Shown here in pieces: positions 7,851 through 29,315 of a DNA stretch of 29,944 nt. The stretch covers positions 1 through 29,944 of the forward strand of contig OUQQ01000203.1 of the NCBI GenBank assembly GCA_900404475.1, read 5' to 3'. Position 1 is the stretch's first letter. The number at the start of each line of letters is the position of its first letter. Both the position numbers and the translations under genes were made by a program. The notes below the pieces were generated by a model. It was given only the letters and a program-made list of their open reading frames with translations. It was not told the origin of the DNA and made no database searches. This DNA is from Spongospora subterranea. Taxonomy: Eukaryota; Endomyxa; Phytomyxea; Plasmodiophorida; Plasmodiophoridae.

Positions 7851-10045
7851 ATGAGCTCTTTTCGCGTCAATTCACTGCTTTCTCAATGCTCTTCTAATAC
7901 GACTGGCGCGTCTTTAGTTGACTCACCCGTCACCGCCCACAAAGACACAGATGTCGTCGTTGTCGCAGCCGTCCGAACTCCTATCTGTCGTGCTAAAGTA
8001 AACAATAATCTTTTGTGGTTAACGATCTCACCAGTTTACAGAAGGGCGGTTTTGCCAACACGTCAGCGACAACTCTTTTAGCAACGGCAATAAAAGGGGT
8101 TTTGGCCAAAGCTAAAGTCGACCCAGCTATCATCGAGGACGTATGCGTTGGTACTACTCTGGCTCCGGGTTCAACCCGTGCCAACGAGGTAATTTCCACA
8201 GTGCTGTTTTCCTTTCTTATTCAAGCAACGGTTCTAGGTTCGAATTGCCGCATATTTATCAGGATTACCTACATCAACCTGTGTTAGAACTGTTAATCGG
8301 CAATGCAGCTCAGGTTGGAGATCCCTGTTTTATTATTCTAGTCATACTATTTAGGGTTTTCTTTTTTGACTTCAAAACGAGTTATTTTGGTTTTCCTGAT
8401 TTCGGTCATTGTTAAATTTCGTCGGAATCAGGACTTCAAGCAATTGCGGATATTGCCGGTGCAATTAAATCTGGTTACATATCCGTCGGAATTGGTGCTG
8501 GTGAGCCTTTTTGGTCGGTGTCGTGTAACTTCAACGTATTAACTGCTCTTAGGCGTTGAATCAATGACCACTGACAGTATGTCGTTTGGCGGGAAAATTG
8601 ACTTAGCAGCAAAGCAGCATCCCATGGTATATCATCTCCGTCTCTCTTGCGTTCGTCTAATTTATTCCATTTTTCGTCTGTAGGCTAGGAACTGCTTGAT
8701 TCCAAGTAAGTAACGACGCTTTTTTCGTATTGCTGTAGGCGTTTCTTCTTTTCAAGTTGCATTTCGATGTTATATAGCCATGCGTTTCAAACTTCAACAG
8801 TAATCAATTTCAGTGCTCAGCTCTGATCGCTTGACTGTTTCGATAGTGAACTGAGGACAACGTTGCGCGCTTGCTCTTTTGTGTTTGATTACCGAGATTA
8901 TTTTTTGGAAATTTCGTTGCGTTTGTTTATAGTTATCAAAGGATACTTTCAGTGATCGCTTTTTTTGCATGGGTCATGTAATTTTGCTTCTTTTCTGATT
9001 CAGTGGGTATCACGTCCGATAATGTCGCCAAGAAGTACAGCATTGACCGAAAATCTCAAGTCGGTTCGCCTTCATCCTGTCATGTATATAGGTCACTTAC
9101 TCAGGTATGCCCTAGGATGCCCTTGCGGTAATGTCCCATGAGCGCGCGGCAAAGGCAACCTTGACAGGTCGTTTTAAAGATGAGATTGTGCCTGTCACCA
9201 CCGAAGTTACCGATCCTAAAACTGGTGTTGTCAAAAACACTGTTGTTGACAAAGATGACGGTAAATTCACATCAGGGAACAACCATGTGGTTTAGAAGAG
9301 CTCCATTACCAGGTATTCGTCCAACAACTATGGAAGGCTTAAGCAAGTTGAAGCCTGCATTCACTAAAGACGGAACAACTACTGCGGGCACCAGCAGCCA
9401 GGTTAGCGACGGAGCGGCAGCGACGTTGCTGATGTCTCGCGCCACGGCGAAGAAGCTCGGGTTAAAGCCGATCGGATCGTTGCGAAGGTAATTTTGTCGA
9501 AACCCATTTCTTGTAACCGTCGGTTAACAGACAACATCGCGGTTAGTTTCTCGGTAATTGGTGTCCCTCCTGAAATTATGGGCATTGGACCTGCTTTCGC
9601 TATACCCGCCGCAGTAAAACAAGCTGGCCTTAACATGAAGCAGATTGATCTGTTTGAAATCAACGAGGCGTTTGCCAGTCAGGTAATAGATGCACTCGCT
9701 GTCGCATGCTGATTAGATGCCCTTCAATCCTACTGAAGCTTCGCTTTACTCTTCGGCCTAAATTTGACTGACAATATTTCCACTTCGATTTGTTTCGTGT
9801 TGTTCAAATCCTTTTCATAGGCTACGTACTGCGTTAATAAACTTGGTCTAAGCTGGGATAAGGTCAATGTCAATGGTGGCGCAATCGCCTTAGGCCATCC
9901 ACTCGGTTGTACAGGATCCAGAATGACCGCAACATTACTATCCGAAATGTCAAAGCGCAAAGCGAAGTATGGCATTGTTTCTATGTGCATTGGAAGCGGA
10001 ATGGTAACCATCTGTGCGAGTGTGCTTTTGGGTCAAATTGTTTAA
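7851..10045 (+). CDS. Peroxisomal-type 3-ketoacyl-CoA thiolase (acetyl-CoA acyltransferase)
   Basis: It catalyses thiolytic cleavage of 3-ketoacyl-CoA to acetyl-CoA, the last step of fatty-acid beta-oxidation. Eleven exons join without any phase conflict: 7851-7997, 8042-8188, 8238-8313, 8432-8500, 8553-8626, 8684-8705, 9004-9059, 9116-9260, 9313-9487, 9547-9682 and 9821-10045. They give 423 aa, the size of peroxisomal ACAA1/KAT enzymes. The nucleophile is Cys121 in NRQCSSG; NEAFASQ, GHPLG (His375) and CIGSGM (Cys405) complete the active site. All catalytic residues are present. Residues 5-13 (RVNSLLSQC) resemble a PTS2 peroxisomal signal but for the last residue. Exon 6 is only 22 nt and the following intron (298 nt) is the longest. 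The gene appears intact. Confidence 0.96.
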
Positions 10046-11025
10046 TGGCTACTACAGGGGGCTGCTGCTGTCTATGAATGCGAATGTTGATTCCGTTCCG
10101 GTTTTACCGTCCGTTATAAAATGTCTCCTTGCTTTATTCTCCATGAGCGAATGAGTACTTTGAGTATTGTCCACACTGGACGTTGCTTCACGTCGATGGC
10201 CTTCAAAAATAGTGTTACGCGATGTGATTTCACGACTTTTGAAAAACACCGCAATCGTAACAACCGGATACGTGTATGGGTAACTATTGGAGCGAAAAAA
10301 ATCTCTGTCACTTTGTCGAGTGTTGAAAACATTGCGGTCCGTTCTCCTGCAGGCGTGATCTTATTTGATGTGTAGAAGATGCTGTGAAGCAGATCGTATC
10401 CTGACATTATTTTGAATCTAAAAAGATTCTGTTTTGTGAAAATCGACGGATTTCAGAGTCATCATAATGTTTACTTACGACAACCAAAGGGGCTAATAAG
10501 GAAATGGAGATATCTGGCGTGATATTGGCTGAATTTCAACCCAGGTTTCGTAGTTGGGTATGTTGTGGCCAGTCTGAGAACGTCATTTGAAACTAAATAG
10601 ATTCTGTTTTGTGAAAAATCGACGGATTGCGAGTCATCATAATGTTTACTTACGACAACCAAAGGGGCTAATAAGGAAATGGAGATATCTGGCGTGATAT
10701 TGGCTGAATTTCAAACCAAGTTTCGTAGTTGGGTATGTTGTGGCCAGTCTGAGAACGTCAAGACGATTTTGTTATATGTTTTGTTTTTAGAAACAGTTTG
10801 CTTCTCGGTTGAACGAGAATTTTCTTTGAGGTCTTTATTCCATTGTCTCTATTATTTCAGGAAATTCCATCTTGGCAAGCAATGATTCACATCAGTATAG
10901 GTGCAATGACCAGTGAAAACATGAGTTTCAATCTCAGGCAAATACAAAGATAAAGCTGCGCCTTGAACCCAGACTTAGGAGATCTGTCACGATTAGAATA
11001 GATTGGCAAATATGAACCGGAAACA
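10046..11025. other. Intergenic between convergent thiolase and membrane-protein genes
   Basis: Holds the 175-bp tandem duplication at 10411-10760. Open frames at 10114-10407 (-) and 10121-10375 (+) mirror each other and look like chance frames. No other structure seen. Confidence 0.5.
10411..10760. repeat. 175-bp direct tandem duplication
   Basis: Copy 1 is 10411-10585 and copy 2 is 10586-10760, head to tail with no spacer and equal length. They differ at only a handful of positions plus a compensating pair of 1-bp indels near aaaatcgacgg/aaaaatcgacgg. From tcatcataatgtttacttac onward they are almost identical. This indicates a recent unequal-exchange or replication-slippage duplication in noncoding DNA. 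No terminal inverted repeats were seen. Confidence 0.95.
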
Positions 11026-11773: not shown

Positions 11774-12785
11774 CAATAACGGCAGCAGCGCCAGCAATGG
11801 TTAGCACATAAATTAAGTTAGTGGTGAGGGTCTGGTGGACTCACGAGCTCGTGTATTTAGGGGGATGACTAATACATGCGTAATCCTGACTCACGCCTCT
11901 TTGTTACAATAGGTTACAAACATACACCAACAGTGACTTACCCCATCGACAACAGTAACTTACACCACCGACTAACAGTAACTTACGCCATCGACCAACA
12001 GTAACTTACACCACCGACCAACAGTAACTTACACCACCGACTAACAGTAACTTACGCCATCGACCAACAGTAACTTACACCACCGACCAACAGTAACCTA
12101 CGCCATCGACCAACAAATTTATCCAATAACCCTGCCGCTGTCGTTTACACCATATTAGGACTTGTCAGACTTCAAAGTCCTCATGAAATAACTATTGTGG
12201 CTGTGTTGTTTATCACAAATCTGTATTGCATTTTTTGGTGGTTTATGCTATTATCCGAGGAGTTTCTTTGCCCAACGCGACGGATATGCTCTTAGCTTTG
12301 ATGTTCCGATTTGTATACATATCCTTATACAGATATCAAAAAAGTCCCTTTGCAAACCTGCATTTAGATGTTGTTTCTGTAATTACAGAAGTGCCCGAGT
12401 GCAAAACCCACGACAGGTTGATGCGCTTATAGAAACAGTGAACGCTCCTTAGTCATACCGAATGTCCAGAACACCTCAAACTGTTCATCTTCCGCCCTTT
12501 ATGCTTTGATGCATCTCCATGTCATGCACCAGGATACATCTTTCGTCAGCTCAATCACTCTGGGATTGCACAATGGGCACTGGCTGTCTCGATAATTCCA
12601 CCCAGAAACTCAAGATTTGAACATTGGCCGATCATTCACCTGTTTATTACTTTTTCTTGGCCAAATCAAACCTGACCCTCTACAGTCAGCAACTCAGGCC
12701 TGAACTAACACGGTTGGTCTCGTGCCTTCCAGAAGATTCCGAACCCGGAATACGATAGGGAGACCATTGCCAATATCTCGTCAAT
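11774..12785. other. Intergenic between divergent membrane-protein and TTC23-like genes
   Basis: Contains the 23-bp minisatellite (11928-12110). The rest, 12111-12785, shows only short unrelated open frames and presumably includes the promoter of the TPR gene. Confidence 0.5.
11928..12110. repeat. 23-bp minisatellite, eight units with a three-unit higher-order duplication
   Basis: The unit is yaacagtaacttacrccaycgac. The first unit is 22 bp and seven 23-bp units follow, for 183 bp in total. Units 2-3-4 and 5-6-7 are identical triplets (69 bp), so the array grew by duplication of a three-unit block. Units abut directly without spacers, so this is not a CRISPR array. Confidence 0.95.
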
Positions 12786-14532
12786 ATGAGTTCGCATTCC
12801 AAGTCGGCCGCCATAATTGGCCTTGATAGTTCAATGGGGTTTAACCATGCTGCCCTCATGTTTGGAGGGCATAGTCGACACTCTAAGAAAATGTCAATTT
12901 CCTCGAAAAAACGTCAATCGTCACCGCGGTTATTAACAAAAAAGGTTTTGGACCCAGAACTGGAAGATGTCGACATGACACCGCCAGAAGAACGACTCGC
13001 GAAGTTTTCTGTGTTGGCGGTCGAGTACGAGGAACGTCACGATTTCGAGCAGTTGGTAACGGCCAGGATGCATTGCTTGGCGCTTGCACAACTATGTTTT
13101 GGCAAAACGCACCCAGAAGTCACGCTATCACATCTACGATTGGGCAACGCTTTTCAACGCCGGGGCCTGTTCGTACAGGCTGAGCAACATGCACAGACCG
13201 CTCTGGATCGGCTAACGTCTATCGACCACGGCGAGAAAGAATCCAAACGGATCCGGTTTGGAGCGCTTTCTACTGTTGGATGCGCAGGGATAGGCCTTCG
13301 CCAATGGGCCAAAGCTGAGCCTCTTTTGCAGCAGGCGCAGGACCTGGTCGAATATGCATCAGGAGCGAGCGATAAAGCCAACCTCATGCTGGCTTTATCG
13401 CAGGTTCAGACACAGGTCGGGCCTTATCCTGCAGTATTATTACCTTATCGTCATTACACCATACTGTTCAAATGACTGACGTGGCGTTATGTTTGAATTG
13501 GTACTCTCAAACGGATGACGGTTGATTCCTCATGGGGATGTGGCAATCGGAAGACATCCCTGACTGAAGATTGAAATTTTATGCAATTATACCAGTTGGG
13601 GACAGAGTTTAGTGATTTCCTGCCCAAAACCTTGTTGAAAATATTGGAGCCTATTTCAAAGGTTTTCTAGTTATATTTGCAACGGAAATTTGTATCGACC
13701 TAATAATTCACTCTATATCCTTAAATCTCATTTCAGAAACGCTATTATGGCGATGCGGTAGAAACCCTAGAAAGTGCACTGGCTGAAAAACTGAAGATCG
13801 TATCTGAGACCCATCCGGATATGTTGGCATTCTTCCTGCAATTGGGTCGGGCTTATCATCGCCTGTCGACAACCGCTGCAGATCAACCCAACCCTCTCAT
13901 GTCGCAAAAGGCTGTCGAGGTACTCACCAAGGCTGTCAACGTCGGCGTTGTCAACAACTTTGTATTCAAGCAGGAGATGGGCGACGCAATGTTCTATCTT
14001 GGGTAAGTCCCTTACGTTTGTCGTTTGTCGAGGCGCTAATTTTCTCTTTGATTTCACCTCACTAAATGATCGTTAACAGCCTTGATCATGATATTTTGCT
14101 CATTAATTCTGTGTCTTTAACAGGGCCAGTTTGGCGGAGTCGGGAAAGGCCGAAAACGCCATCGAATACTTCGAACGATCACTAAAGGTGTATCGGACCC
14201 TACATGGCAAACGATCAGCTCCGGTTGCTCGAACCCTTCGCCAGATCGCGTTCCTGTTCATCCGTCAGCGAAACCTGGATAGTGCCATTCCCTATTTGGC
14301 GGCCGTTATCAAGGCAGAATCGCACCTGCATGGACCCAACAGCGTTCAAGTTGGGGATCTATTGAAAACACGAGGCGATGTTCTACTGATAGCTCAGCGA
14401 TACGACGAGGCAATCGCGTCGCTGACTGAAGCCGCCTCCGTCTACGAGACCGTATTTGGGTCCGATTGCCAGCAACGCAAGGAATGTCATGACAGAATTG
14501 CCCGAGCCGATGAAATCAAATATTCGGAGTAA
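12786..14532 (+). CDS. TPR protein, TTC23-like (kinesin-light-chain-type repeats)
   Basis: Three exons (12786-13415, 13737-14002, 14124-14532) join in phase into 434 aa. After a basic low-complexity N-terminus (about 1-65), tandem TPR helices run to the end. The segment with FEQLVTARMHCLALAQLCFG then KTHPEV and a repeat ending QAEQHAQTALD parallels the TTC23 opening, where a 'Y-x-x-H' motif follows CLALTR. Later repeats contain YFERSLKVYRTLHG and RYDEAIASLTEAASVYE, typical of the kinesin-light-chain TPR type. TTC23 proteins of animals act at the ciliary base (EvC zone), and the length (about 447 aa in human) matches. The TTC23 identity is by pattern; a generic KLC-type TPR protein is the alternative. 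Introns are 321 and 121 nt. Confidence 0.8.
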
Positions 14533-16467: not shown

Positions 16468-19215
16468 TCAGAAATCGAGTTTGGCGACCCAGTGTTTAAA
16501 GCGCTTGCATGCGGCGGTCAGGCCACCGTCCTCCACGCTGTCGGCCACAACTTCGTCGCCATGAACAAGAATCACGCGCATGTCCAAATGTTTGGAAACG
16601 TCGGCGCCGAATGCGAAACGAGGTCCTTGGGAAACGGCGGCGTCGTAGGAGCTGCGTTCTTGGGCAATCTTACTGTGGACATCTTCTTCGAGCATGGCCA
16701 CCCAGGCGTCACCGGATAGCGCCTTTGCCGTCATGTTTTGAACCAAATCCATGAACGGGACACTGTTGCCAGGACGCCAATAAATGTTGTCCAAATCAGC
16801 ACCAATCTAGAAGACTGTACTCAGCGACAATGATATTATCCAGTGCAACTTATTGCGATCGGGCGCTAGATGACGAAAGGTTACACGAAAGTAAACACTT
16901 TGATATGTTTTGAACGAATTACACACTAACAGCGAAACACTAATGTCGATAAAGGCAACCAATTGCTGATTGGAAAAACGCAAAAACAATTGAAAGCAAG
17001 GTCAATGTTGAAGAAAACAAAAACTAAAAAAAAACAACCTGGGGATTATCGACGATTGTTTGGTATTTGCTGAGGAAGTGGGCCCGAGTTTGATGAACCG
17101 CCATATCGGCCAGCACATACCCATGATAATAAGCGGCGCTCTCATCACTCAATATATGAGGGATGCTGAGCAAAGGACGTGATGATAAACCGCCCTGGAT
17201 TGCATACTCGACGTCATCTGACAGGGCCAACAACCCATCGACCGTCACCTGATCGTCTGGCAGTTCGTAAAGACGACGCTCGAAGAATGGGACCGCCAGC
17301 ATCGAGCGCAGGGCAAATACTTTATACGGGTGCGTCGCTAGTAGATCGGCTTCGATTGTCGAAAACGGGATCGGCTCGCCAGTCCGAGAGAGAGCAAAAC
17401 GACCCATCCAAGTTGCGTCGCCGACAAGAGAATCCAAAAACATCGACTGAAAAAAACAAAAGTTATTTAAAGAAACGAAGGCGAACAATTACTTTATATA
17501 ATCAAAACAGAATCAAACGCTGATACAATCGAACCTGCGTTTCAGCATAGGCAACTGATGTTGGGGCGCGCTCCTGAGAGAAAAGCGGGCTGTGTTGTTT
17601 GACGTTAGCGAAATGTGCAGCGTGACCACCCTCGTGCATGAGCGTGATTAGGGCGGTGTGTCCAGAGCCGACCTGTTTAGGCGAAGCCAGGCTGGTCAGG
17701 TTGGCCTGCGACGGAACCCAATCATTGTGCGACCGCACCCAGGCGGGTTGTGGCCAATGACAGAACCTAATACACCAACATCAAGACGTTGGAAACCAGA
17801 AACTCTAAAAGGAGATGGTGGGAAAACACATATCGATACAAAACATTGAAAGCACAAAAGAAAACTCGAGAAAAGACTCATATGGAAACCGATGCTCGAC
17901 TGTTTGCGAGTGTCGTACCCGTTGCTATATTTCCCTGGGCGATCGCAAAGGTCCATGCGCATGGTTGCCCCTGAATATGTGATCCCCATGCCGGCGAATG
18001 AGCGCGCCCATACATCGACAGCGTTCTCAAAGGGGAAATACGGATCCTTCATTCGGTCGATCGCACCGGATAGGGCAAATCCGGTATTCCAGGGGTTCAG
18101 GGCGTCCGGACCGCGAGAGACGCCTAAGTTTTTCCGAGCGTGCTCCATTAATGGGCGAGAGCGTTCTTCCAGCGCGTCCAAAATGGTGAATAGCGTGTGT
18201 TTGTTGAACCCTTCAGCCTGCGACACTTTCATATCGTAGAAGCATTGGTAGCCCAACAGGCGCGCCAGCTTGTTTCTTAGAAGCACAATCCTAATCGAAT
18301 GTTCTCGTTAGTCGAACCATCAAATATTTTAAACAACCGAAACTGTAATGTGATTATACGAAAATGAACCTCGTAGGAAAATGGTCGAAAACACACCAGT
18401 ATCATTTCGAATGACAAACCGTGACCGTATCAAACCAATTGGAAGAACGCATTACTCGCAGAATTTGGGAACGATGAAGGTGCCGATAGATCGCATCCCT
18501 TGATAACAGGACTTGCGAACAGTTTCATTTTGATCGGTACGCATGACATTGCGTAGCTGAACGCTGGACGCTGGCGTCACGGTACCATTCCCGTCAACGT
18601 ATTGCAACTTCATCATATTACGCTCCGATGCCAGTTCAGCCTCCAACGCGTCTATTCGTTGACGTATAGCGCGCGCGTCTTCGTTCTCAATGACGTAGCA
18701 CTTGATGGTCCGTTCGAATAGCTCCAGCGTGCGGCGATGATCATCGGTCAGTGAAGGAGACGATAACCATTGGCGGACCGTTGCCAGCGCGCTCGTATCC
18801 CCGAGAAACGCATCCAGCTCCGCCTTCGTCTTGGTCAGATTTGCTAGACACCATAGCGAGAATCAATAATCGACCGCATTAATGTAATCTGACGGTCAAC
18901 ACAGGGCCAACTGGTGGACGAAACCTTATGAGAATGATAAAAACTACCTGCTGATGCATTCTTCAGGTTCATCTTTGTGGCCCAAAAACAATCTGCAACA
19001 ATAGCGCCATGGTTAAAACTGATGACGGGCAAAACAGGAGGGGGAGGGCGATCCCGACCTTCATAGGCCTTATGCTTGGATTCATAAGCGGAATTGAACG
19101 ATTCGATGAAGGTGTCGACGCTGCCGGCCTGTACCATACCCGCTGCTACCGTTGACGAGGTCGTGAATGAATGGCGAACGAAACAAGAGGATAGCGGTCG
19201 GATCCACAACAACAT
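16468..19215 (-). CDS. M3 family zinc metallopeptidase (PepF-like oligopeptidase), probably mitochondrial
   Basis: A zinc-dependent oligopeptidase. Seven exons (19215-19059, 18992-18948, 18843-18456, 18290-17919, 17766-17535, 17446-17039, 16806-16468) join in phase into 646 aa. The zinc motif is HEGGH (365-369) within LITLMHEGGHAAHF. A downstream Glu (about 396, in SVAYAETQ) is the expected third ligand, and AYYHGYVLA is the conserved late Tyr region of M3 enzymes. KLARLLGY and RPGKYSNGFCHW are further family landmarks. The N-terminus (MLLWIRPLSSCFVRHSF) is basic, hydroxylated and without acidic residues, as in a mitochondrial presequence. Exon 2 is only 45 nt. No disrupted catalytic residue is seen. 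The subfamily assignment (M3B versus M3A) is tentative. Confidence 0.92.
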
Positions 19216-24905: not shown

Positions 24906-25816
24906 CAGATGGCAATGAACAATGTGAACATGAAGATCCATTTCTGCAAGATTGGCAATGATGTCGGTCACTGGTCACGAAGATGCAAGATCAAGAGTAA
25001 AAACAAGGCATACAAGAGAGCGGTCTCCGTCAACACAACAAACGGCACCATGCACAACGACAATTTTGGGCCCCAATGCCACTCAAGACAGCATATACTA
25101 ACAGGCGATGTTGAATCATGTTCTTTTGCAGTGAGAGCGGTTTGAGCCTATTGTGTCGTGCATTGTTTGCCATTTGGCTGTTTCAGGGACTTGGTTGTGA
25201 GTATTCCATTCATGCATCAAGTGCATTTCTGGGCATTTTCATTGATACTGGCGCTTCACTAAACAATAGCGAGGCACTCACGTAGCTGGCGCAAACCCAG
25301 TCAACGACATCGTGAACTTTTGAAGGACCAATAAAGCCACTTGGAATCCGATTTGGCAAACAGGTGGTAAAAATTAACGTCAACCTGATCTTCATCGGTG
25401 GACCTTTTGTCGACGGCGACATCGACGAAGCCACATTCGATCGCCATCCTTGCAAACTAATAAAAAAACAGTATGTATTCGCTTCCGTCACCCGTCGAGA
25501 TAAATTTCACCCTCCCTGGAAACAAATTCGCCTCACGAACGCGATTGAGCGATGACGGGGCACGCATCTGCAATGATAACTGATATGATGAAGAGGAAGG
25601 CACAGGTCAACGGGCATCAAGATCAGCACTCCCATGCATCAATTGCAACTTGTGAACCATGTGCTAATGCAAAACAACCGTCTGGACTCGAACCGCTGCA
25701 GAAACCAGGTAGCCTCCTACATGTCAATATTCGGGGTCCCATGCATTTGCTAAACGGACCCATGCCAGGCGTCACATCCACCGGTCAAGATTTAGCCAGC
25801 GACTGGCTTAAAAATT
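24906..25816 (+). mobile_element. Decayed Ty1/copia-type retroelement fragment (gag zinc knuckle to start of integrase)
   Basis: Landmarks occur in the usual copia order on the plus strand. First is a degenerate zinc knuckle, CKIGNDVGHWSRRC (about 24945-24990), in which the second Cys is replaced. Next is an aspartic-protease-like FIDTGAS (about 25235-25260). Last is a GAG-pre-integrase type CEPCANAKQ followed by LLHVNIRGPM (about 25650-25745), as at the start of an integrase core. These sit in different frames separated by stops, so the element is inactive. No LTRs and no reverse transcriptase were found, and downstream sequence is too degraded to follow. The fragment separates ISWI from the secreted-protein gene. 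Confidence 0.7.
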
Positions 25817-26588
25817 AGCCAGGGAGTTGCAGCTTGTACTCAGCTTGGGTGAAATACATTGAATGCGGATGGAGCAAAAAATCATTCGTTTGCGTTGAAC
25901 TGAAAATTTGGTGTTGAGGTGGCATCGTGGCGCTCAAAAATATAAACAAACAGGGAACCAAATGGATTTCAATTTTCAAAGAGAGTTGAATATGTGCAGC
26001 GAAAACACGAATTGGTGACATGACCTGACATGCAAAGCATGAAGGAAGGGGTGATGAAAACTGACTGGAACCTGGGGAAGATAAATCGTTATAATTGAAA
26101 ATGAACAGAGTGCAGCACCTCAGTCTGAACTCGATAACTGAAATTTTATCTTCCAGTCTGACCAGGCAGTAAAACCCAAAAAAATGATGTGAGAAAAATT
26201 GGGGAATTGGCAAACCACGAATCTAAAGCTGAACTGACCGAATCAAATTCCAATACGTCGACGAACCGATTTCGATAACTGAAAGTACACAGCAGAATCA
26301 GAACCAGCGCGCCATTTCTACCAGGCCAACTCAGAACCAACAATCAACACGCCAATCAAGGCGAAAGGTCGCCGCCTGTAGGCAATCAAATCCTACACGA
26401 TAACGCCCCGAAATCCTGCCAGATAACCAAATCCAAACTTGGATCTGTAGAGCATAATGATCAAGTGAGAATGGGGTATATGAATTATAATGTAATAACA
26501 CATAGAACCGTTCGTCTCATCCTTCACTCTGAACTCATCCTTTCCCGTTTAACGAACAGCGCTACTGTTGCGCCATCCTATATCTCAA
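25817..26588. other. Spacer with possible further retroelement debris; upstream region of the secreted-protein gene
   Basis: No intact exon recognised. A minus-strand frame at 25815-26213 is open but has no domain and looks like a shadow. The last 150 bp before ATG 26589 must include the promoter; no clear TATA box is seen. Confidence 0.4.
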
Positions 26589-28913
26589 ATGCGTGTCCTC
26601 GAATTGTTGGGATTGTTGCTTTTGGCGACCAGACCGACTCGATCTGTGACACTCGAACTTGGTCATGATTGGAGCGAACACCTTGGTTCAGGTCAGGTTA
26701 ATGTCGCCACAATAATCGCCTCCTCGACTTCCTCGGTATGGATGGCGGAATGTCGCTCCAAAGAATTGAATTCTGAGATCATTGGTCCTTGCAGGACACC
26801 ATGTCGCCATCGCAGGAGTGGCCAATGTCCCATGACAAGACCAAAGGTTTATATTACCCAGTAAACAAGCATTCAAATTTGCTGAAAGGCGATTCCTTGT
26901 TGGAGTTTGATTTTGCCAATATCAATCGTGTCGACCAGTTTGGTGAAAATTCTTCGATGAATGTAGTTCAGCTCATCTTCATATAGAGATTCGGCTTGCT
27001 AAGTGCATTTTTAGGAATGGCACTCGAGCCCGGGTTCGAAAATTGACGCGTCCCAAATTAATATCGATTCTCAACATTTGAGCCAAAAGGGCGAGAACCT
27101 CCATTGCCTTATTGATCTAAATCGAATTCCTATTGATTCGGAAATGTTGCCATCAACAGACTTTCTCGAGAATATCGTGCCCGATAACAGAATCGCCCAC
27201 CAGTTTGGAGGCAGTTCTTCCAGAAACTTAGCCGTTCAGTTCATGTCCAAATTGTGTTTGGATTTGCTGAGTTCTTTTGTAGGATTGGAACCCGAGCACG
27301 AGTTCAAACCGTGATGCAACCCGTATAAGAGTTGATGGTCAACAGTCAATTGAAAGCATAGAAGGCAACACTTTCGATTTCCGCATCGAAAACACGATTA
27401 TTTCGAATAACCAGCCTGTTGACGTTCGTCAGAAAGTCGTGCTGGTAAGACATTGCCGAGAATTGTGATGACCAATATCTGCTTATGTCGTACTAGGATG
27501 GATTTCCGGAGCACACTAAAAAAATGGTTCATCCTTCTGCGTTCAGATTTAGAAAGTTCTGTCCGCCCCTTAACTGGGACCTGGATGAGGTCAAAGATTA
27601 TGGAAGCCTCTGTGTGTTTCTGGTCAGAACTCCGGTCATCGCTCTGTCTGGAATTTGATGATCACAAACTGTATCGTCTACTTAGGGAAAGGAGACGAAT
27701 CTAGAACAGATCGAGTTTTACAACAGTGTCGCCATGACGGAACACATGATGAATCTACTGTTGCGCGGAAAGTCGGTGCGGGATACCGTTAAGGTCGGAC
27801 AAAACAACATCGATGTTCCTCATCCTAGGTTATTTGCCAAGGCGACCAACACCCTGCAAAAGCTGATCCTAATTTCGAATTTTGTTTTGAAACTGGTCTC
27901 TTGTACCAGATCGCTCAACGGTATTGATCCTCACTTGACTTTTCTTTTCAAGCACACCTGTATCCCTGTCCTTCAATGTCTTGTGAAATGTTGTGGCAAA
28001 GATATGGACCTGTTCCAGACACGTTGGGGCCCGTGTTTCAAGCACCCTTCTTTTGGAAAACAATTATGCCCCGGTCCTGGATTAAATCATAACACCTGCG
28101 GTTTCCAGATGACGAAAATCGTCAAAGCCCCTGAGTACTGGTTTTCATTCGCATTTTTCAGAAAAACTGATGAACATTTGTGCTTTCAGAGACAAACACC
28201 CCGGTTTATTTGAACTCAAAGTTCTTATTGATGCTGCTTCAACGTCAAAAACCGCAGAACACAAACTAAATTTGTGTTGGGCAGAGCACACACTGAATTT
28301 GTTTTGGAAATTCGACGAGATATACCGATCAAGTGACCCTATGAGTACAAAGAGTTACCAATCATATTATTCCCGGTCTACGCAACCCATTTTGGGGTGC
28401 TTTGTTCATCACTGTCACCAAAATATAAATGAGTGGATTCGAAAATGGGGCACTAAATTCACACATGGGGAATTCAGATCGCGGAAATGTCAGGGCTTGA
28501 AGGACCATTTTTGCGGAGAGAGCGACCCACCATTTGATATCAAAGCAAGACATGAACTTCGCAAAAAATCAAAATCAACCCGAAACCTCCTCCCAGCGAT
28601 ATCCGAAATTATCGAACAGTATGATCATTACGTGAATGTAAAGGAAAAATCAATGAGAAGGCCTCATCCGGATTTGACCGCGTTGATCATTAGATGCCTT
28701 CGTCCTGTCAACAATTGTTGGCAGCGTCATTGCGATGGAGACGTTGAGGAATTTGTTCGGAGATGGGGAAAATTTCTATTTTACAACAGTTTCCGTCACG
28801 ATTGTTGTCCTGGAAAGGAAGCTGCGATCTGTCAATATCGTCGTCCCAAGGTTAGATCTGGGTTGACCCTCCCAGTGACTCAACAAACAAAAAAGGTGAA
28901 GTCAAACAAATAA
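26589..28913 (+). CDS. Secreted cysteine-rich protein with three C-x4-C-x10-WG-x12-C modules; unknown family
   Basis: Seven exons (26589-26696, 26795-26965, 27015-27233, 27283-27444, 27497-27634, 27686-28134, 28190-28913) join in phase into 656 aa. MRVLELLGLLLLATRPTRS is a clear signal peptide, and no later membrane span is seen. The N-terminal third is low-complexity and polar; exons 3 and 4 begin with a related EWHSSPGS/DWNPSTSS start and introns 2 and 3 are both 49 nt and similar. The C-terminal half carries three modules with Cys/Trp at 364/369/W380/394/404, 486/491/W502/516/524 and 592/597/W608/622/630. The consensus is C-x4-C-x10-W-G-x12-C-x-G-x5 to 7-C, with a conserved Phe five residues before the third Cys. 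Four Cys per module suggests two disulfides. The C-terminus is basic (RRPKVR, TKKVKSNK). A DLNRIP string lies at 127-132. I recognise no family; a secreted effector or wall/adhesion protein are possibilities. Confidence 0.8.
26870..27320 (+). repeat. Intragenic exon-intron duplication in the secreted-protein gene
   Basis: The exon 2 end, intron 2 and exon 3 start (about 26910-27050) resemble the exon 3 end, intron 3 and exon 4 start (about 27165-27320). Shared strings include NRVDQFGENSS/NRIAHQFGGSS, donors gttcagctcat/gttcagttcat, both introns of 49 nt, and gcactcgagcccgggttcgaa/gaacccgagcacgagttcaaa. The similarity extends through the intron, so it is DNA duplication rather than protein convergence. 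Confidence 0.7.
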
Positions 28914-29021
28914 ATAGGATTATTCTTTTGTATTCATATCATTTTTTTTTCTTTAAAATTCCGTCATTTTTCCGTAATTCCGTTGGATTCTGGCAGAGAT
29001 ACATGTATGTGGCTTCAACAC

Positions 29022-29055
29022 CTCCCTCCGCTAAGAATTAGGTAGGCAACGCACG
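29022..29055 (+). repeat. CTCCCTCCG-type terminus, copy 1
   Basis: ctccctccgctaagaattag at 29022-29041 shares its first nine bases with the 29735 copy. Its downstream sequence is more divergent, so membership in the same family is tentative. Confidence 0.45.
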
Positions 29056-29315
29056 CTCGATTGATGTCGATTGATTTTGTTGTTGAGTCTAATGAATGGT
29101 TGGAGTGGGCTACCATCAGATATGATGGCAGTGGGAAGGATGCCAATAGATCCCACCCCAGATAGAGAGCAACCGACTCGTGTACGGGTTGGAAATCCGT
29201 GTACCAGGATAAGCGTAAAATGTTTGACACAAACCCAATTACTAAATAAAACGGTAAAACGCATTACGATAAATCGACTTGTTTGTCACGAATGGTAACC
29301 AAACGGTGTTAAATA

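Follow-up and report, generated by a model that had tools for sequence, protein, structure and literature searches.

Spongospora subterranea, the organism of potato powdery scab, is a parasite of plant roots. A stretch of 29,944 nucleotides of its DNA (hereafter the window) carries, on the forward strand at 26589-28913, a gene of seven exons separated by introns of 49-63 bases. An earlier note, made from the letters of the window alone, read the product as an undescribed secreted protein built on a repeated C-x4-C-x10-WG-x12-C-x-G-x5/7-C module, possibly one that interacts with the host or a surface. The locus raises the question of what such a protein is: whether it stands alone or belongs to a family, whether its module is of an extracellular type, and whether the copy in the window is itself sound. 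As far as the available parts of the publications go, 613 secreted proteins are predicted in S. subterranea, mostly not shared with Plasmodiophora (PMC4471660), and a secretome study published in eLife in 2025 covers the species (PMC12503489). According to the available text of a 2026 review, the species still has no annotated repertoire of effectors, and no specific gene or protein of the pathogen had been identified in studies as a usable target for pesticides (PMC12883290). A recognisable module together with a sequenced relative offers a concrete list of genes, a profile with which to look into other plasmodiophorids, and a domain without an assigned fold.

For comparison with the exon model (Table 1), 17 paralogous copies were taken from 16 loci of this genome. 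In the alignment, the exon frames are kept in most of these paralogues and the splice sites are mostly conserved; among otherwise open copies, the exceptions are L022, without the GT of intron 2, and L017, without the AG of intron 6. Compared by eye, an uncharacterized protein of the same species, P0001, joins exons 1-2, 2-3, 3-4, 4-5, and 5-6 exactly as modelled. Frames and splice sites common to most paralogues, and the P0001 joins, thus bear out the seven exons first proposed from the window alone. Intron 6 deserves a separate mention. Its position is read through in P0001, and it is open in several copies of the genome. In L020, on contig C673 (3121-3125), it is absent, about one codon having been removed with it. 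This natural intron loss supports the splice model. A one-base difference near 28153 was considered as a frameshift and rejected, because the position falls in intron 6, as defined by conserved splice sites and by the intron-less L020.

Table 1. Coordinates of the family gene and of associated features in the window
Feature	Position	Strand	Remarks
Exon 1	26589..26735	+	Start codon and hydrophobic, signal-peptide-like N-terminus; open and aligned in compared copies
Exon 2	26795..26962	+	Donor GTAGTT at 26963, alternative donor possible at 26966; junctions 1-2 and 2-3 match P0001
Exon 3	27015..27233	+	N-terminal repeat unit; each copy has one or two in addition to exon 4, to which they are homologous
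Exon 4	27283..27444	+	Repeat unit akin to exon 3; junctions 3-4 and 4-5 match P0001
Exon 5	27497..27622	+	Paralogue alignment; junctions 4-5 and 5-6 match P0001
Exon 6, carrying module 1	27686..28134	+	Usual family donor 28141, which would give a stop in the window copy; 28135 is there the donor that keeps the frame open
Exon 7, carrying modules 2 and 3 as well as the stop codon	28190..28913	+	Paralogue alignments
Module 1, C-to-C core	27977-28099	+	Pattern match; invariant residues
Module 2, C-to-C core	28398-28514	+	Pattern match; invariant residues
Module 3, C-to-C core	28716-28832	+	Pattern match; invariant residues
27-bp in-frame tandem duplication	28254..28307	+	Window copy only; none of the 29 remaining exon-7 rows has it
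Extent of homology to other copies, with flanks	26467..29282	+	Nine copies start matching at 26467, seven end at 29282

The N-terminal part of the protein combines a putative signal peptide with a repeat of variable number. As judged by hydropathy, all 18 copies begin with a hydrophobic stretch, the best 11-residue Kyte-Doolittle mean of exon 1 being 2.61 in the window copy and 2.61-3.35 over the whole set. The homology of exons 3 and 4 is apparent from profile comparison (hhalign E 3.7e-7), and the number of these units differs between copies. Over 34 loci, three units are found in nine (L021-L026, L035, L037, and L042, where two pieces overlap), four in L011, which contains two genes, and one each in L036 and L040, which lie at contig ends. 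The remaining 22 have two units, as in the window gene.

In the six frames of the window, the module pattern has three matches, all in this gene, whereas 100 equally long sequences generated with an order-1 Markov model contain none. Profile comparison makes the three modules homologous (hhalign E 1.5e-9 for modules 1 and 2, 1.2e-10 for 1 and 3, and 6.6e-10 for 2 and 3), and in the genome search the exon-7 query of one copy also matches exon 6, with module 1, in many copies (E 6.0e-4 to 4.6e-7); the exon 6 of the window itself is matched at E 5.3e-6. The repeat described in the earlier note is therefore genuine. Its spacings of 122 and 106 residues are reproduced if the last intron is taken as 28135-28189, and its module length of about 110 residues agrees with the 105-120 or so found here.

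The residues that define the module hardly vary over the family. In the numbering of the window exon 7, 30 exon-7 sequences never change at C70, H74, C75, W86, G87, F95, C100, G102, and C108 (module 2), nor at C176, H180, C181, W192, G193, F201, C206, and C214 (module 3). For module 1, 30 exon-6 sequences, some of them incomplete (L031-L034), are invariant at C92, C98, C102, C103, W114, G115, F123, C128, and G130, and nearly so at C138. The exact pattern occurs at least once in 57 of the 60 exon-6/7 pieces, and a looser core in all 60. The residue preceding the second cysteine is also invariant: module 1 has C there, and both other modules have H. Two details of the earlier description have to be corrected. 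Four cysteines per module had been counted; the conserved numbers are six, four, and four for modules 1, 2, and 3, those of module 1 comprising five invariant cysteines and one nearly so. Moreover, the P-x-LT-x-L string reported for module 1 is absent from the family consensus at that module. AlphaFold2 gives helical models for the window exon 7 (mean pLDDT 74.2, pTM 0.50) and for the three modules of L020 (mean pLDDT 75.6, pTM 0.41), in which long helices are accompanied by a short one that terminates at WG. Fold searches gave no convincing match: Foldseek against viral models returned nothing at E≤1e-3, and a further set of matches, middling for a helical model, was set aside.

The window gene is one member of a large, expanded multigene family and not a single protein. 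In the 20.59-Mb assembly to which the window belongs (679 contigs), DNA search gives at least 62 matches and protein search with one exon 7 at least 74. At least 34 of these 74, among them the window, are free of stops over 150 or more of the 208 exon-7 residues, one of them, on C99, being disturbed elsewhere in the gene (L019); the remainder are cross-matches to the exon-6 module, fragments, or stop-containing pieces. Eleven of the 17 paralogues are open in every exon, and six (L011a, L012, L018, L019, L021, L025) have a stop or a frameshift in at least one, the status of rows with an extra exon-3 unit being judged by eye. Remote modules lie on C304, C306, and C316, those on C306 and C316 looking partial.

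Copies are scattered over the assembly, with two or more on some contigs (C657, C463, C278, C100). The common ends of homology at 26467 and 29282 suggested a transposed unit, that is, a mobile element. This candidate was set aside and segmental duplication is preferred, because other copies share longer and variable flanks among themselves. Upstream of the gene, the stretch 25770-26447 recurs in the flanks of L023, L024, and L038 with 75-93% identity in pieces; it has the opposite orientation to the gene and is perhaps a repeat element.

Outside the assembly, few relatives were found. A search with a 10-row alignment retained two of 2,994 candidate proteins at E 1e-3, both from S. subterranea, and a search with the 30-row exon-7 alignment retained two of 1,249, P0002 and P0003. 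Such protein searches need shared five-letter words, so that distant relatives can be missed. Indeed, the window exon 7 as sole query returned no protein among 96 candidates, though P0002 was within the length range; this search thus misses relatives. P0001 (A0A0H5REK9, uncharacterized, 639 aa, S. subterranea) has all three modules, the N-terminus, and the repeat units, and P0002 (A0A0H5QYM5, uncharacterized, 340 aa, same species) has all three modules without the N-terminal part. Their identities to copy L022, used as a 394-residue query, are 68% over 97% and 48% over 92%, respectively. Against the assembly, P0001 reaches at most 73% over exons 6-7 and up to 91% and 93% over exons 3-4 and exon 5, and P0002 at most 69%; hence the assembly holds no near-identical copy of either. 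Part of the published genome seems to be absent from the searched set, or isolates may differ. P0001 itself probably comes from a transcript, since its accession series, from about 2015, is older than the first genome of the species. The available text of the 2026 review dates that genome to 2018 and gives the published draft as 28.08 Mb in 2,340 scaffolds (PMC12883290).

P0003 is of another kind. This hypothetical protein of 239 residues from a JGI metagenome contains one complete module (E 2.3e-14 and 2.6e-10), with PPKKRRK just before it, and starts without a visible signal peptide, its start on the contig of 2,500 bases being unproven. It resembles a locus of the S. subterranea assembly (L048, C304:76900-77900, minus strand; 29% over 204 columns, E 2.9e-20), the matching pieces of which sit in different frames, be it through introns or damage, and which has KRGRPS at the corresponding place. 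P0003 and the C304 locus thus share one full module with the family, but both are single-module forms with a basic stretch before the module.

No known domain was found to account for the module. None of the ten pieces submitted to Pfam matches a zinc or any other domain at E≤1, NCBIfam gives one chance-level match (E 0.21) for three pieces, and PDB sequence search returns nothing for exon 7, the alignment reaching only E 0.43-0.49. Word-based searches of viral contigs and prokaryote genomes yielded no confirmed relatives. In titles and the beginnings of abstracts, no paper describing the family was found, and it may sit unnamed in the supplementary cluster lists of the 2025 study (PMC12503489). 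The module and the family thus appear undescribed in the searchable literature, expanded modular candidate effectors being already known as a kind. These searches agree with the earlier note in several respects: the profile search hits no zinc or intracellular Pfam domain and returns two uncharacterised Spongospora proteins and, by its module, P0003; no known family emerges; and close relatives are found, by word-based search, in S. subterranea alone. Its view of an extracellular-type protein holds only in part. The hydrophobic N-terminus of all 18 copies agrees with it, but the module also occurs in P0003. As that protein has no visible signal peptide and PPKKRRK before the module, disulfide bonding cannot be assumed.

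Omega was estimated pairwise (Nei-Gojobori) in the main subgroup, comprising 24 exon-6 and 23 exon-7 copies and leaving out six rows (L029-L034) for exon 6 and seven for exon 7. Whole-exon values are 0.89 for exon 6 (bootstrap 0.72-1.08) and 1.04 for exon 7 (0.87-1.25), neither distinguishable from 1. Windows of 15 codons over C-x4-C fall to 0.38-0.51, and those over WG give 0.46 and 0.89 in module 1, 0.72 in module 2, and 1.09 in module 3. Values of 1.4-2.0 are found where exon 7 begins, ahead of helix B, in the stretches that separate the modules, and in the C-terminal loops, some of the windows taking in the third or fourth cysteine. Across the 18 aligned copies, the divergence of exon 7 (0.198) is greater than that of any of the six introns (0.132-0.170); exons 2 and 5 also exceed each intron, exon 6 does so marginally (0.171), and exons 1, 3, and 4 (0.139-0.149) do not. 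Fast windows and an exon 7 that outpaces the introns are what a fixed scaffold with changing surfaces would predict. The same picture, at least in part, could also arise from relaxed constraint together with gene conversion.

From these sequence features, we consider it probable, with some reserve, that the gene belongs to a lineage-specific, diversifying multigene family of secreted modular candidate effectors of this plasmodiophorid root parasite. The predicted proteins begin with an N-terminus that resembles a signal peptide, continue with two or three repeat units of one exon each, and end in three modules, modelled as helical and some 105-120 residues long, whose fixed points are C-x3-[H/C]-C, WG, C-x-G, and a final C. 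The N-terminus would direct entry into the secretory pathway, and oxidised cysteines would hold the helices of the modules. Because invariant residues lie beside stretches that change fast from copy to copy, the former may keep the fold and the latter vary, so that a single scaffold would present many different surfaces. The likeliest role would follow release into the host cell or at the host-parasite interface, where different copies might bind or evade different host molecules. We accordingly regard the family as a good candidate set of molecules with which the parasite acts on its host, and the interpretation of the earlier note holds partly. Counting against an effector role are the whole-exon omega values, not above 1, the WG windows at 0.72 and 1.09, the fast windows that include the third or fourth cysteine, the six broken paralogues, and P0003 as a module relative lacking a visible signal peptide.

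Known effector families offer analogies without identity. The CCG motif is defined as CX2CX5G, and this string is found in none of the 60 exon-6/7 pieces. The CCG candidate effectors of Albugo candida, as presented in the available part of the secretome study, may nonetheless be compared with the present family, being an expanded and species-specific group of secreted proteins with several helical modules pinned by cysteines (PMC12503489). The RAYH/AvrSen1-like proteins of Synchytrium endobioticum, so far as the available texts describe them, are similar in that their secreted, species-specific family is expanded, keeps its intron positions, and has a core of alpha helices (PMC6572847, PMC12503489), but they belong to another organism and RAYH occurs in none of the 60 pieces here. 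The best six-frame match to a RAYH-type motif in 257,763 bases covers 6 of 11 positions, the same as shuffled motifs. Ankyrin-repeat secreted proteins, 39 of them in a cluster, are reported as expanded in the S. subterranea secretome in the available part of that study (PMC12503489). These plasmodiophorid proteins are likewise expanded and repetitive, but the ten pieces searched here contain no ankyrin or other Pfam domain. Finally, inspection by eye of the exon 1 and exon 2 translations of 18 copies found no RxLR of the oomycete effector type; the string is present in 10 of the 60 exon-6/7 pieces, far from the N-terminus.

The main rival holds that the module binds metal, for instance zinc. 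It would originally have occurred once, in a protein located inside the cell and perhaps in the nucleus, and would have been triplicated in this family, the latter being perhaps secreted, perhaps not. We regard this as unlikely, and it stays in consideration because of the H/C exchange before the second cysteine, an exchange seen in many zinc sites, and because of the single-module relatives, P0003 and the C304 locus with their basic stretches. The hydrophobic start of every family copy speaks against it, as do the even numbers of conserved cysteines, which all-disulfide pairing would need, the failure of the Pfam search to find a zinc family, and the unproven start of P0003. An extended version seems more doubtful still: the module (C-x3-[H/C]-C ... 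WG ... C-x-G ... C) would be a new domain of the zinc type, originally present once in an intracellular nuclear protein of plasmodiophorids or of their kin. It would have acquired a signal peptide ahead of it, undergone triplication, been fused to an exon repeat of variable number, and multiplied until the parasite had in it one of its largest families of hypervariable secreted proteins. Cysteine-rich secreted proteins are often structural, and the family could also consist of structural or protective proteins of the parasite, for example of the spore or sporosorus wall, the change from copy to copy being relaxed drift after duplication. Whole-exon omega values near 1 and a broken exon in six of 17 paralogues are in line with this proposal, which we nevertheless hold improbable: with invariant cores beside fast windows and an exon 7 more divergent than any intron, diversifying change, as in the candidate-effector reading, fits better than drift alone.

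A further alternative concerns the window copy only, which is atypical and may work or be decaying. Of the 18 copies compared, it is the only one in which the usual exon 6/7 junction, read by eye, would give a stop; the 27-bp duplication is likewise its own, and its frame runs about 20 residues beyond the usual stop of the family. Its nearest paralogue, on C124 (86% DNA identity), has neither the duplication nor the altered junction. That the window copy is a decaying pseudogene of the family is thus possible, though we lean against it: none of the seven exons is interrupted, no module residue has been lost, and the frame stays open if a GT lying six bases upstream of the usual exon-6 donor is used.

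Other features were observed along the way. The window also contains a minisatellite at 11926-12115 (a 23-bp unit, about eight times), a near-perfect tandem duplication of 175 bp at 10411-10760 (96% alike), and gene pieces for a thiolase N-domain at 9165-9491 (+) and a TPR_12 protein at 12759-14532 (+), together with a weak peptidase M3 match, below the cut-off, at 17696-18307 (-). An alpha-tubulin of animal type and 11 chitin synthase matches on six contigs had suggested a chytrid, in particular Synchytrium endobioticum. Against this reading stand a single LysM match, where that species is reported to be enriched (means 22 to 7; PMC6572847), and the protein search, which points to Spongospora; a published mitochondrial primer has no match either, which by itself says little. 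The GC content of about 44-45% in the sequences examined compares with a published 45.7% for S. subterranea (PMC12883290). Searches for an 18S end pattern, 5S rRNA, and nuclear receptors yielded no match, the control genomes giving none either in one of the three. Elsewhere in the assembly, a second, clearly divergent alpha-tubulin-like open frame lies on C275 (L044, 1087-2148), besides the intronless one on C350.
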